DNA from: an uncultured Christensenellaceae bacterium
GTDB lineage: Bacteria > Bacillota > Clostridia > Christensenellales > UBA3700
Assembly (NCBI GenBank): GCA_944380355.1
Contig: CALWHJ010000001.1
Span: forward strand, 124,001 to 188,000
DNA length: 64,000 nt
Reading direction: 5' to 3'
How positions within the stretch are numbered: the stretch's first letter is position 1; every line of letters starts with the position of its first letter. This document shows positions 1 to 28,626 of this stretch, piece by piece. A program made the position numbers and the translations under genes. Under the pieces are notes generated by a model. The model had not been told where the DNA came from. It saw only the letters and a program-made list of their open reading frames with translations, and did no database searches.

Positions 1-88
1 AATACTTGCCGTATTACGATGACGACGAAACGAAAAGGGCGCAAAAGACACTCTTACAGACAGCCCGCATCCCCTTCGAGGCGGTACA
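1..88 (+). repeat. Right half of a structured palindromic repeat element (5' part cut by window edge)
   Basis: The segment begins with the core hairpin AATAC-TTGCC-GTATT followed by ACGATGACGACGAA, and ends with ACAGCCCGCATCCCCTTCG plus AGGCGGTACA. Both blocks recur, in the same order and spacing class, at 25,590-25,681. At 25,519-25,681 the complete element is visible as a long nested palindrome, so this copy is its right half and the left arm lies outside the window. The element ends 15 nt before the typA start codon and touches its ribosome site. It could be a non-coding mobile repeat or a transcribed structured leader; the sequence does not decide. Confidence 0.7.
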
Positions 89-3221: not shown

Positions 3222-3297
3222 TGGTGCACCTTCAGAGACTCGAACTCTGGACCCAATGATTAAGAGTCATTTGCTCTACCAACTGAGCTAAAGGTGC
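3222..3297 (-). tRNA. tRNA-Lys(CTT)
   Basis: Acceptor GCACCTT pairs with AAGGTGC. The anticodon stem AATGA/TCATT encloses loop CTCTTAA, giving anticodon CTT. CCA is encoded (3222-3224). Last gene of the tRNA operon, directly before its terminator. Confidence 0.95.
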
Positions 3298-3301
3298 ATA
3301 C

Positions 3302-3376
<75 letters not shown>

Positions 3377-3399
3377 ATATTCAGTATCTTTCTTGTATG

Positions 3400-3483
3400 T
3401 GGTGCGGATGAAGAGACTCGAACTCCCATGTCGAAGACACTAGATCCTAAGTCTAGCGCGTCTGCCAATTCCGCCACATCCGC
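3400..3483 (-). tRNA. tRNA-Leu(TAG)
   Basis: A class II tRNA with a long variable arm. Acceptor GCGGATG pairs with CATCCGC. Anticodon stem CTAGA/TCTAG encloses loop CTTAGGA, anticodon TAG. CCA is encoded. Confidence 0.95.
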
Positions 3484-3496
3484 ATCTTCAGATGCT

Positions 3497-3572
3497 TGGT
3501 GACCCATCCGGGATTTGAACCCGGGACACCATGATTAAAAGTCATGTGCTCTACCGACTGAGCTAATGGGTC
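3497..3572 (-). tRNA. tRNA-Lys(TTT)
   Basis: Acceptor GACCCAT pairs with ATGGGTC. Anticodon stem CATGA/TCATG encloses loop CTTTTAA, anticodon TTT. CCA is encoded. About 100 nt without a recognisable gene separate it from the next upstream tRNA. Confidence 0.95.
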
Positions 3573-3673
3573 AAACCTTTGTTATCATATATCATTATCG
3601 CTGAAAATGCAAGCGTTTTGATATATTTTATAAAATTTTTAACTCATTACGCCAGCCGATGAGTAATGATAAA

Positions 3674-3749
3674 TGGCTGGGGTGGAAGGATTTGAACCCT
3701 CAAGTGCTGGAGTCAGAGTCCAGTGCCTTAACCATTTGGCGACACCCCA
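3674..3749 (-). tRNA. tRNA-Gln(CTG)
   Basis: Acceptor TGGGGTG pairs with CACCCCA. Anticodon stem CTGGA/TCCAG encloses loop CTCTGAC, anticodon CTG. CCA is encoded. It is closely similar to its neighbour tRNA-Gln(TTG), consistent with tandem duplication and anticodon change. Confidence 0.95.
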
Positions 3750-3764
3750 ATGATTATTTTTTTG

Positions 3765-3839
3765 TGGCAGGGGTAGCAGGATTTGAACCTACGAATACCA
3801 GAGTCAAAGTCTGGTGCCTTACCGCTTGGCGATACCCCT
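3765..3839 (-). tRNA. tRNA-Gln(TTG)
   Basis: Acceptor AGGGGTA pairs with TACCCCT. Anticodon stem CCAGA/TCTGG encloses loop CTTTGAC, anticodon TTG. CCA is encoded. Confidence 0.95.
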
Positions 3840-3847
3840 ATAATAGG

Positions 3848-3925
3848 TGGGGTGAGTAAAGGGAGTCGAACCCTTGGCCTCAAGAGCCACAATCTTGCGC
3901 TCTAGCCAACTGAGCTATACCCACC
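3848..3925 (-). tRNA. tRNA-His(GTG)
   Basis: Acceptor GTGGGTA pairs with TACTCAC, with a G at position -1 and C as discriminator, the identity pair of bacterial tRNA-His. Anticodon stem CAAGA/TCTTG encloses loop TTGTGGC, anticodon GTG. CCA is encoded. Confidence 0.95.
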
Positions 3926-3930
3926 ACCTG

Positions 3931-4007
<77 letters not shown>

Positions 4008-4012
4008 ACAAG

Positions 4013-4086
4013 TGGAGCGAGTGATGGGAATCGAACCCACACGACCAGCTTGGAAGGCTGGGATTCTACCATTGAACTACACTCGC
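4013..4086 (-). tRNA. tRNA-Gly(TCC)
   Basis: Acceptor GCGAGTG pairs with CACTCGC. Anticodon stem CCAGC/GCTGG encloses loop CTTCCAA, anticodon TCC. CCA is encoded. First gene of the operon after the promoter at 4128-4156. Confidence 0.95.
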
Positions 4087-24936: not shown

Positions 24937-25108
24937 TAAAGACATAAAAATCTCTGCAAAAATAAGGTAGCTGATATTAAATTAATACGGTTTTATTACG
25001 TAAGATATTTAATTTTTGCAATTATTCTGACAAAGTCGCAATTTTAAAAATAAACAGTATCCGTCACGTTACATAGGCAAGCCCGACAGAGAATAACTAC
25101 CCCAAATC

Positions 25109-25314
25109 CGTACCGACGAGTAGCGGGTGTGAACTAGGCTGTAAGCCGTGAATTTTGCGATGCTTTGTTGTACCGCTAAAGAGCGGTGCGGATAAGATTT
25201 GAGATGTGCATCTTACGGCTGTTATTTTGTTGAGGCACTTGACAATACGGCAAGTATTGCCGTCGCACCTCGCCGCATAACAGCCGCAATCTGCTACTCT
25301 CAAATTGCGAGCCC
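25109..25314. repeat. Structured repeat, decayed copy with an inverted core
   Basis: It starts with the left end GTACCGACGAGTAGCGGGTG and GAACTAGGCTGTAA (25,109-25,145), close to the left ends at 25,438 and 25,519. Within it lies a palindrome: ATTTGAGA at 25,198 pairs with TCTCAAAT ending at 25,314, and CGGCTGTTAT pairs with ATAACAGCCG. The centre CAATACGGCAAGTATTG is the reverse complement of the core hairpin of the other copies. A small hairpin ACCGCT-AAAG-AGCGGT sits at 25,171-25,186. It looks like a mosaic or degraded element. No coding function is supported. Confidence 0.6.
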
Positions 25315-25333
25315 CGTATTACGGCTTATCCTT

Positions 25334-25408
25334 ACCGCTTTTTATCGGCAATGCGAAAGGAAGAAGTAATACTTGCCGTATTACGATGACGCCGAATTGA
25401 AAAGCGGA
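25334..25408. repeat. Structured repeat, core and middle stem
   Basis: CCGCTTTT-TAT-CGGC (25,335-25,349) pairs with GCCG-AATTG-AAAAGCGG (25,391-25,407). Between them is the conserved core GAAGTAATACTTGCCGTATT, continuing ACGATGACGCCGAA, nearly identical to the core at window positions 1-30. The middle stem sequence is unlike that of the copy at 25,519-25,681 yet still pairs, so pairing rather than sequence is kept. Confidence 0.65.
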
Positions 25409-25437
25409 AACGCAGAATTGACATATATATAAACTCA

Positions 25438-25500
25438 GTACCGCCGAGAAGGGGTGCGAACTAGGCTGTAAACAGTGGATTTTGCGTTTTATATTTAAGT
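25438..25500. repeat. Structured repeat, left end only
   Basis: GTACCGCCGAGAAGGGGTGC followed by GAACTAGGCTGTAAAC matches the left end of the complete copy that begins 81 bp further on. No matching right end follows before that copy, so this is a truncated unit. Confidence 0.6.
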
Positions 25501-25518
25501 AAAGCAATAACAAAACTT

Positions 25519-25681
25519 GTGCCGCCGAGAAGGGGGGCGGGCTAGGCTGTAAACAACAGATTTTCCGATAATTTGCTTTGAGAAGGACGAAGTAATACTG
25601 GATGTATTATGAGGACGCCGAAACGCAAATTACGGAAAAGATGCGTTTAGAGACAGCCCGCATCCCCTTCGAGGCGGCACA
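25519..25681. repeat. Structured repeat, complete copy (about 163 bp)
   Basis: Three nested stems are visible. The outer arms are GTGCCGCC-GAGAAGGGG-GGCGGGCTAGGCTGT (25,519-25,551) and ACAGCCCGCATCCCCTTCG-AGGCGGCAC (25,653-25,680). The middle arms are TTTTCCGATAATTTGC (25,561-25,576) and GCAAATTACGGAAAA (25,625-25,639). The apical hairpin is AATAC-TGGAT-GTATT within GAAGGACGAAGTAATACTGG. The right end touches the terminator of the next gene. Flanking target duplication is not evident. It may be a non-autonomous mobile repeat, or a DNA/RNA structure with a regulatory role. Confidence 0.75.
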
Positions 25682-25720
25682 AAAAAAGAGAGGTCCGAAG
25701 ACCTCTCTCTGTTTTTTTTG
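25682..25720 (-). terminator. Terminator of the 963-residue lipoprotein gene
   Basis: AGAGAGGTC and GACCTCTCT form a 9-bp stem with a CGAA loop (25,687-25,708), with a poly-T tail in both directions. It is immediately next to the right end of the complete structured repeat. Confidence 0.9.
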
Positions 25721-25734
25721 TTCAGTAGTCTTTA

Positions 25735-28626
25735 TCAGACTATTTCGAATTTAACGAGTGCGCCGTCAGCAACCGCAGCGTTTGCACAGTTGCAATTGTA
25801 TTCTGCACTGCCGTCTACTTCGATAGTTACGTTTGCTATATCGAATTGAGAGATAGCATTGATAACAACTTCTGCAGTACCGCCTACAGCTTTGTTGCCG
25901 TTAGCAACAACGCTCATTACTCTGATGTTTACAAATGCGTTGAGACTGGTGGAAGTCATCGTGATGGTTCCCTTTACATTTACGTTGGATACGGAACCGT
26001 TGCCGAGATTCTTGCCTACTGCACCTGCTACATAGTAATCTGCGCCGGTCTTTGCGGAGATAACTGCGTTTACGTTACCGCTCAAGGTGAGGTTCTTGAT
26101 TTCGCCTCTGTTAACTGCGAAGAATGCTACGCTGTTGTCGCTCATACCTTCAACGGTATAGTTGGAGATTTCATAACCTGCACCGTCGAGTACACCTGCA
26201 AAGGAAGTAACGGGAGCGATGGTTGCGCCGTCCATATCGATGTTGTCGGTAAGAACGAAGTTAACACCTGCAAAGTTGTTGCCTGCAGCGGACTTGCTAG
26301 CCAAATCTTTGATTTGGTCAGAGGTGAATACCTCATACTTGCCGCCGAATTCGAAGCCGTCGATAGCAGCTACGCCGCTTACGTTAACAGTGAGGTAAGC
26401 CTCAGTGTCGCCGATAGCAATGGTAACTACGTTTGCGCCTGCCTTCATATCAGCAAGGGTCTTGTAAGGAATGGTAACTTTCTTGGTTGCTACGTTGTAA
26501 GTAGCGTTCTCAGCGTCTACGGTAACCTGAGAAGCGTCGGTAACGCTGTCAACCTTAGAACCGGAGAGGCTGATAACAACGTCGTTCATTCTGTCTGCGC
26601 CTGCCTTGTCGTAAGCGATATCGGACTTATCGAGAACGAGGCTTCCGTCATAAACGATTTGAACGTCGAATTCGATTGTACCGTACTCGGTAGGATACTG
26701 GAGAGTAACGGTTTCGTTGATTTCGCTGTTCTGAGTGAATACGGTAAGGATACCGTTTTCTATTCTGTAAAGCTTGCCTTCGTAAGGAAGTACGTCAGCC
26801 ATGGATACGGTGGTATCGAAGTAATACATACCCTTGAGGTCGTATGCCTTAGCTTTTACATCGGGAAGCTGAGTTTCAAGAGCAGTAAGCTCGAATACAT
26901 TGCCATCGTACACGTCGGTAACTACGGTAGGCTCGCCTGCACTGTAGAGTACGATTTCGCCGTCAACGATATCTACGGTCTTGCCGATGTTGGCAATGCT
27001 GCCGATAGAGATAGCGAAAGTGAGGTCTACGTCATAGTAGAAGCCGCCTTCGAAATAAATTGCACCGGATACTGCTACGTCTTCGATATTTTCAGCACCT
27101 ACGAGGTTATCGGTAGAAGCAAATCCGTACAAACCGTTGAAGTTGCCGAGTTCTGCCATAATGCCGAGTTTAGCAACGCCTGCGAGAATATCGAGCGACA
27201 AGGTATTTTTGATACCGAGTTTAACTTTTGCACTGCCTTCTACGTCGATGTTGACGTTCTTGAGACCGGAGCCTTCGATTTCTTCAGCATAGGTGGATAC
27301 ACCGTCAACCTTATCGTATGTAGCACCTACCATATAGTTGAATTCGGAGTTAGCTTTGATACCGAGTCTGCCTGCGAAGCTGAATTTGAAAGTGAGGTCA
27401 CACTGATAGGTTACGGAAACTGCGCCGCCGCCTACGGGAATGCTCCACGTAAACATAGGAACGTCAACGCCGCCTTCAGCGTTAGCTTCGTCCTGCATCT
27501 TAACGGTCTTTTCGATAAGTTCCGTCAAGTTGGTAACGCTGGAATAGCTGTAACCAGTCTTGATATCGACGGTGGTGTCGATAACGTTGTATACGTTAGC
27601 GATAACGCCGCAATCTACCGCATTGCCTTCCATATCTGCATTGATAATAGCGTCAGCGGTGATAAGAGCGTTTACGGTAACGATAAGATCGGTAGTCGCA
27701 GAATCAACTTTAACTACGCCGGGGATAGTCATCGTAATAGCTACTTTAACAGAGCCGTCTTCAAGTCTTTCGGGTTTGATGTCAAAAGTAGGAGCCGAAC
27801 CGAATACGGATACGGAAGCCATAGCGAGAGTGCTGTTTTGGAGTTCCTCCTCGATTGCCTCCTCGTCAAATTCTACCTTGCTGTCCTTGTCAAGCTCTTC
27901 GGTAGCGGATACGGAAAATTCTTCATAAACTTCGTTGATTTGAGGTTTTACGTAATTGATGAACGTAACTGCATTCATATCGGTCTTGCTTGCGCTTTCG
28001 ATTTTGTAAGCCTCTACAAGTCCGTTTTCCTCATCCTCGACCATAATTATGTCGCCTGCGTTTACGTCGACGCCGCTGGTCTGGATTTTAAGGTTTCCGT
28101 AGATTTCCTGTTCCTTACCCTCTCTGAGGACGAGCTCTTCGCTTACTTTCTCAACCTGCTTGGAGTCGAAAGTAATAAGACCGTCCACGAATTTGATATT
28201 GCTCAAAGTATCCTGGGTAATCGTAAATACAATGCTCTTAACCTTGCTATCGTAACCGCTGAAAGACAAAGATTTGTCAATGGTAATTTTGTAGATAGCA
28301 CCCATCGTGTAATAACCGTTGGGGGGGTAAACCGTAAATACGTTTTTACCGTCAGCATTGTTAGCCTTGGAAACAGTAACGTCTACCTTTTGATTGCTGA
28401 CTACTGCAATTACCGAAACCTTATCGCTTATATCGGTAACACCCTCGTCTGCAACTACGGTAAACATAATGCTCTTTTCTGCATTATTCAAAGTGGCAGT
28501 TGCACCTTGTTGGTCGCCGTCAACGGAAGTAGAGTTGTTTTTATTAACACAACCCGCTGCCATTGCCATAACCATAGCGACGATAAGAATAACGCCTACA
28601 AAGATAAGCATTTTATTCTTTCTCAT
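25735..28626 (-). CDS. Large surface lipoprotein of unknown function
   Basis: A signal peptide ends with the lipobox MAAGC (Cys about residue 26), followed by a Ser/Asn/Asp linker, so the 963-residue protein should be displayed on the cell surface. The sequence is beta-rich, rich in Val, Thr, Asp and Ala, and very poor in Trp and Cys after the lipid anchor. Residues about 770-930 contain GLUG-like or right-handed beta-helix repeats (FVLTDNIDMDG, FAGVLDGAGYEISNYTVEG, GEIKNLTLSGNV, GSVSNVNVKGTI), a pattern shared with secreted adhesins and polysaccharide-binding proteins. No catalytic motif recognised. A run of seven C on the coding strand encodes Pro-Pro at about residue 100. Ribosome site GGGAGG. 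Confidence 0.8.
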   Translation of the reverse strand: MRKNKMLIFVGVILIVAMVMAMAAGCVNKNNSTSVDGDQQGATATLNNAEKSIMFTVVADEGVTDISDKVSVIAVVSNQKVDVTVSKANNADGKNVFTVYPPNGYYTMGAIYKITIDKSLSFSGYDSKVKSIVFTITQDTLSNIKFVDGLITFDSKQVEKVSEELVLREGKEQEIYGNLKIQTSGVDVNAGDIIMVEDEENGLVEAYKIESASKTDMNAVTFINYVKPQINEVYEEFSVSATEELDKDSKVEFDEEAIEEELQNSTLAMASVSVFGSAPTFDIKPERLEDGSVKVAITMTIPGVVKVDSATTDLIVTVNALITADAIINADMEGNAVDCGVIANVYNVIDTTVDIKTGYSYSSVTNLTELIEKTVKMQDEANAEGGVDVPMFTWSIPVGGGAVSVTYQCDLTFKFSFAGRLGIKANSEFNYMVGATYDKVDGVSTYAEEIEGSGLKNVNIDVEGSAKVKLGIKNTLSLDILAGVAKLGIMAELGNFNGLYGFASTDNLVGAENIEDVAVSGAIYFEGGFYYDVDLTFAISIGSIANIGKTVDIVDGEIVLYSAGEPTVVTDVYDGNVFELTALETQLPDVKAKAYDLKGMYYFDTTVSMADVLPYEGKLYRIENGILTVFTQNSEINETVTLQYPTEYGTIEFDVQIVYDGSLVLDKSDIAYDKAGADRMNDVVISLSGSKVDSVTDASQVTVDAENATYNVATKKVTIPYKTLADMKAGANVVTIAIGDTEAYLTVNVSGVAAIDGFEFGGKYEVFTSDQIKDLASKSAAGNNFAGVNFVLTDNIDMDGATIAPVTSFAGVLDGAGYEISNYTVEGMSDNSVAFFAVNRGEIKNLTLSGNVNAVISAKTGADYYVAGAVGKNLGNGSVSNVNVKGTITMTSTSLNAFVNIRVMSVVANGNKAVGGTAEVVINAISQFDIANVTIEVDGSAEYNCNCANAAVADGALVKFEIV

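Follow-up and report, generated by a model that had tools for sequence, protein, structure and literature searches.

A MITE-like family of palindromic repeats in Christensenellales, seemingly constrained in structure and polar in placement

The repeat array and its fold

The window, that is, the whole stretch of 64,000 nt that was analysed, comes from an uncultured Christensenellaceae bacterium (genome G000) and contains, between positions 25105 and 25690, a series of long palindromic units. The most prominent of these is a complete hairpin element (25519..25680, + strand) that consists of an outer stem, a middle stem bounded by TTTT and AAAA, and a conserved apical core. Together with a few nucleotides of flank, this sequence forms a single long hairpin (-87.6 kcal/mol; z = -11.8 relative to dinucleotide shuffles), in agreement with the original prediction of a complete folding unit of ~163 bp; it scores 165.7 bits with the narrower (R1) and 128.9 bits with the broader (R2) of the two covariance models described below, the copy belonging to both training sets. 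The apical core (25583..25625, +), a hairpin GTAATAC/GTATTAT with tandem G.A internal loops, is the most conserved part of the element: its columns are invariant or nearly so among 24 full copies, and pairs 68-100 and 71-97 covary.

Upstream of the complete element lie two older units that lack the 3' arm. The nearer one (25438..25517, +, direct repeat D1) consists only of the outer 5' arm followed by an AT-rich linker, so that the left end predicted at 25,438 is a genuine repeat which extends no further than arm and linker; similar units are found upstream of full copies elsewhere. The farther one (25110..25436, +) retains the 5' arm and the core (25357-25403) and hosts a complete element of a second subfamily inserted in inverted orientation (about 25168..25351, - strand, core GCGACGGCAATACTTGCCGTATTGTCAAGTGC), which has its own hairpin fold and matches R2 at 34.9 bits (25170-25327, -). 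Because of this nested insert, the middle-stem pairing CCGCTTTT/AAAAGCGG that had been offered as an example of covariation is not a clean one. The insert recurs in sibling arrays of G000 and of its sister species, and further copies are present at C1:226696, C4:101598 and C1:261385. Between the 3' end of the complete element and the stop codon of a minus-strand gene for 963 amino acids (ORF 25735-28626, -), there is a terminator-like hairpin with T-runs on both sides (25681..25734, -, inverted repeat I5), and a similar hairpin is found at the element-free orthologous locus of the sister genome G015.

The copy noticed earlier at 1-88 is also real: positions 1..87 (+; 67.5 bits with R1) are the 3' part of a full copy, C1:123926-124087, that is cut by the window edge. 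It lies directly upstream of a gene (ATG at ~105) which, judging by eye from the protein sequence, we take to encode a typA/bipA-like GTPase. The recurrence of ends and cores across the window is thus confirmed. Scans against Rfam returned no match to the element, only tRNAs being found in the window at the gathering threshold, and a single snoRNA match in a permissive scan was dismissed as chance; the view that this is no named repeat or RNA class therefore stands. A cluster of nine tRNA genes occupies positions 3225-4086 (-).

The architecture common to the copies combines parts that are free to vary in sequence with parts that are fixed. The outer arms, ~40 nt long, are unconstrained in sequence and yet paired; the middle stem is closed by the joint GATTTT..AAAAGRC, which contains tandem G.A mismatches; and the apical core reads C-GMA-GGYAATA..TATTRTC-AA-G in most subfamilies and GAMGAAGTAATAC..GTATTACGATGACGA in the subfamily of the window, with internal loops rich in G.A. 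Covariation is strong in the arms, and the inner loops are fixed. Among the 24 full copies, 33 of the 46 pairs have changed on both sides, 94.2% of the pairing cells are compatible with pairing (78.9% in shuffles and 36-51% in slid registers), and the covariation score is 0.469 compared with 0.179 for shuffles and 0.04-0.09 when the register is slid by 1-3 columns; both controls are imperfect, since the alignment that was scored had also supplied the structure and consists of related copies, but the margin is still large. Thus, it is indeed pairing rather than sequence that is conserved.

Distribution and placement at gene edges

In G000, a BLAST search with the element yields 50 matching stretches, and the genome carries about 20 full-length copies of the ~162-nt repeat along with many fragments; copies at separate loci are 96-98% identical. 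Among relatives, plain BLAST detects the repeat only in two sister genomes, G010 and G015, and would have concealed the family, so that covariance models were needed. The model R1, built from the 24 full copies including that at 25519-25680, finds the repeat in 14 of the genus's 17 genomes; with a stricter cut-off, it matches 28 of the 46 family genomes, which belong to three genera. The broader model R2 matches 22 of 297 genomes of the order under strict filters that may miss weak copies; these include a genus of another family (f3 g66), with E-values down to 8.5e-24, and weaker matches in f29, f13 and others, where the inspected sequences show the common architecture. That 275 genomes give no match shows that R2 is not merely responding to long hairpins of any kind. 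Across genera and families the same length and architecture are kept: these are multicopy hairpins of 155-167 nt with terminal inverted repeats. There was no match in viral contigs, phages or plasmids, and a literature search, which was not exhaustive, found no description of such repeats in Christensenellales. The original prediction was to be abandoned if there were no further copies, no significant covariation or a clear identity to an insertion-sequence remnant; copies do exist, in this genome and in related ones, covariation is large, and nothing matched an insertion sequence. Several copies are located at contig ends (G000: C6:72, C15:2 and C9:66687; G023: C6:303; G024: C19:100), so the assemblies probably break at the repeats and the copy numbers are lower bounds.

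Placement was analysed for 74 full copies with flanks, a simple caller supplying the open reading frames. The neighbouring gene at the 3' end lies on the strand opposite to the element in 48 cases and shares its strand in 25. In the best sampled subfamily, that of G001/G012 (T2), 22 of 23 copies have their 3' end no more than 40 nt from a gene boundary (median 0), as against 1 of 22 for the 5' end (median about 210); other subfamilies follow this rule less strictly. With a same-strand gene, the 3' end is often separated from the start codon by 9-20 nt or followed closely by a promoter-like sequence.

This placement raises the question of whether the repeat could be a structured RNA or a cis-acting mRNA hairpin kept by the host, namely a 5'-UTR element, a 3'-end protector or a terminator at gene edges. 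Conserved loops and covariation are what such a function would produce, 3' ends immediately precede Shine-Dalgarno sites or coincide with stop codons, and placement is orthologous both ahead of typA, in three species, and between two sporulation-sigma-like genes. Nevertheless, we consider this explanation unlikely. In 48 of 73 copies the neighbouring gene is on the opposite strand, which makes the favoured strand antisense to it; the neighbours are diverse and the corresponding sites in sister species can be empty; copies at the same site show no pairing bias (see below); and the favoured strand is not followed by a U-run, its 3' flank being A-rich or mixed rather than T-rich, which is not the signature of an intrinsic terminator.

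Several observations on the surroundings of individual copies can be added. At L065 (6241-6588, -), a G000 frame appears to read ~25 codons into the hairpin, and the element-free G015 orthologue seems to stop at a normal stop codon. At L155 (about 270-480), a full copy adjoins a sequence that, by eye, resembles a cobalamin riboswitch. A second family of short dispersed palindromes, GAGATTTCTCCACT..GTCGAAATGACA along with TTCGACTTCGCTCAGAATGACA, crowds the intergenic regions of the G001 type (L164, L165, L169 and L173 in G001, among others) and looks REP-like. A promoter-like -10 box at the 5' end of the element, hinted at by some linkers, is not supported by column composition, and the small hairpins upstream of T2 copies, once taken for a separate module, now look like 5' remnants of another subfamily.

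Strand asymmetry and turnover

The mismatches that occur within the helices are distributed unequally between the strands. On the + strand, the G.T/A.C counts in three subfamilies are 40/13, 99/31 and 124/22 (263/66 in total, a tally over related copies that is uncorrected for phylogeny), whereas composition predicts a ratio of only 1.0-1.4; G.A likewise exceeds T.C. Furthermore, the RNA fold of the + strand is the more stable one in 33 of 36, 36 of 36 and 32 of 32 copies, respectively (101 of 104 overall). The excess of G.T over A.C on one strand implies that a single strand, RNA or ssDNA, bears the constraint, and thus points to the + strand acting in single-stranded form; the data fit RNA and ssDNA equally.

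A different picture emerges when copies at the same site in sister species are compared. In 14 such pairs (identity 0.91-0.97), the single changes comprise 21 G.T, 16 A.C and 19 others, with 4 compensatory pairs; the ratio of 21/16 differs from the 263/66 seen between copies (Fisher p = 0.003). The absence of G.T bias at resident sites suggests that the constraint acts on propagating copies rather than on resident ones. Hence, the selection on structure that was originally proposed appears to be correct insofar as copies covary with one another, and not to extend to a host function at each locus: structure seems to be selected in the spreading copies, which drift after arrival, although weak selection combined with a time lag would look similar in this comparison.

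The history of individual sites is compatible with turnover. G000 and G010 have nearly all sites in common; at the typA site, however, G010 possesses a new full copy beside the gene, and the arm and core of the G000 full copy persist in G010 as an internal unit without the 3' arm. Arrays in other genera are laid out likewise, the full copy bordering the gene and truncated units preceding it. In G015, the window locus and several further loci are free of the element, and element-free orthologues of other subfamily sites exist in G012, G004, G007, G008 and G003. When G001/G012 sites were checked in sister species, several had an element of a different subfamily at the edge in question, and others were empty. 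Orthologous sites without an element, the nested insertion and the serial replacement at one site together speak for mobility; the empty sites could instead be losses, and replacement could result from ectopic gene conversion without transposition. Comparison with element-free orthologues revealed no clean target-site duplication.

Two comparisons of sites show further peculiarities. At the L168 site of G001 and its counterparts L254 (G008) and L256 (G004), two subfamilies have the same outermost inverted repeat, GTTGGG..CCCAAC, as if these tips were part of the site and not of the element; simple replacement gives no account of them. Between L144 (G000:C7) and L159 (G010:C2), the element and the outer flanks are >93% identical, and the 75-95 nt just upstream of the orthologous element are unrelated and C/T-rich, like many 5' flanks of the G001/G012 subfamily.

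Could the covariation then be largely mutational, with template switching in quasi-palindromes copying one arm onto the other and the outcome spreading as copies recombine? Two subfamilies ending in the same letters at one site would be compatible with such a process, as would the chimeric copy at C1:35310, whose arms do not match, and the arrays that exchange units. However, template switching should erase mismatches, and yet internal loops, those with G.A among them, are retained from genus to genus; neither does it predict the asymmetry of G.T over A.C. We therefore regard it as quite improbable as the main source of covariation. The weakest of the alternatives, a repeat driven purely by recombination in which breaks at the apex are repaired from another copy without any transposition enzyme, would yield upstream units cut at or after the apex and devoid of the 3' arm, as well as replacement at existing sites. 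Upstream units are indeed cut at or after the apex, and the arm and core of the G000 typA copy recur in G010 as such a truncated internal unit. Arrival at new sites, fixed polarity and conserved loops are left unaccounted for, however, and this reading is very improbable. Template switching and ectopic recombination probably do contribute to arm identity and turnover; the conserved mismatches and the strand asymmetry are predicted by neither.

A possible mode of spread and the relation to known repeats

The best reading of these findings is that the family is a new, polar, structure-constrained, MITE-like one. We consider it probable that the repeats are small non-autonomous mobile elements of ~155-167 nt whose spread requires that one strand be folded into a long hairpin with fixed internal loops. 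The mode of movement that we infer would involve an enzyme supplied in trans that binds the folded RNA or ssDNA at the apical core and at the TTTT/AAAA-G.A joint; the copy would then be inserted so that its 3' end meets the edge of a gene. If the site were already occupied, the newcomer would settle on the side nearer the gene, the older copy would retain its 5' arm and core and lose its 3' arm, and resident copies would drift thereafter.

The search for such an enzyme covered RVT_1, Y1_Tnp, DDE_3 and DDE_Tnp_1. RVT_1 was not found in the draft genomes of the richest carriers (G000, G010 and G015) and is present in 17 of 45 genomes of the family; Y1_Tnp (PF01797) was not found in the drafts of G000 and G015 and is represented in that of G010 only by a fragment at a contig end; DDE_3 and DDE_Tnp_1 were not found in eight draft carrier genomes. 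Poly(A)-primed retrotransposition was considered and rejected: many of the A-rich 3' flanks stem from terminators or Shine-Dalgarno sites, the T2 subfamily has no such flanks, and RVT_1 was not detected in the three richest genomes. A bolder proposition, which we put forward only tentatively and as doubtful, is that the repeats represent a new class of bacterial mobile element, recognised by the shape of a folded single strand (RNA or ssDNA), inserted with fixed polarity at gene edges, displacing its predecessor and mobilised by an enzyme outside the tested transposase and reverse transcriptase families.

Bacteria commonly carry small palindromic repeats, and how these spread has mostly been deduced from sequence alone. 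Here, a single repeat family that keeps its shape in several families of one order allows the constraint on spreading copies to be separated from the drift of resident ones; the polarity of its insertion at gene ends is sharp and testable, and the genomes concerned did not yield the usual enzymes as far as tested. Should the proposed mechanism be correct, a new mobility enzyme that recognises shape could be sought in this natural system.

How, then, do these repeats relate to known systems? In the attC sites of integrons, structure is conserved over sequence and one strand is functional, and in both respects the repeats are similar. Their ends (GTACCG..CGGTAC, GTTCGGC..GCCGAAC, TGCCG..CGGCA), however, deviate from the attC core sites RYYYAAC..GTTRRRY, and conservation is found at the apex instead of the termini. 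With the REP/REPIN-RAYT systems they share the organisation as dispersed extragenic hairpins, but REPs are units of 20-40 bp (PMC3733652, PMC3116915), compared with ~162 nt here, and the Y1 transposase was not found in G000 or G015. The repeats resemble MITEs in being <200 bp long and multicopy, with terminal inverted repeats and empty orthologous sites. Like ERIC/RU-1, RUP and Correia/NEMIS elements (PMC2229807), they are shorter than 200 bp, have terminal inverted repeats and would form long hairpins as RNA. Many copies of the window subfamily end in TA/TA, and such ends are absent in the other subfamilies. The repeats differ from ERIC/RU-1 and other MITEs in keeping only the architecture and a short core across families of the order, and in that the tested transposase families were not found in their richest genomes. 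The closest likeness, going by description, is to YPAL/RU-2 of Yersinia, a long intergenic palindrome of nearly equal size (~168 bp) with filled and empty sites and with targets at or near dyad symmetry (PMC2229807); YPAL has target duplications of 3-26 bp, whereas none is clear here, and the portion of that account drawn upon describes for YPAL neither a strand-specific constraint nor a fixed polarity at gene edges. By size, folding and empty sites, the nearest kinds thus appear to be bacterial MITEs, above all YPAL/RU-2, without our claiming membership of any named family; from MITEs, the Christensenellales repeats differ in the breadth of their structure-only conservation, their strand-specific constraint and their fixed polarity at gene edges.
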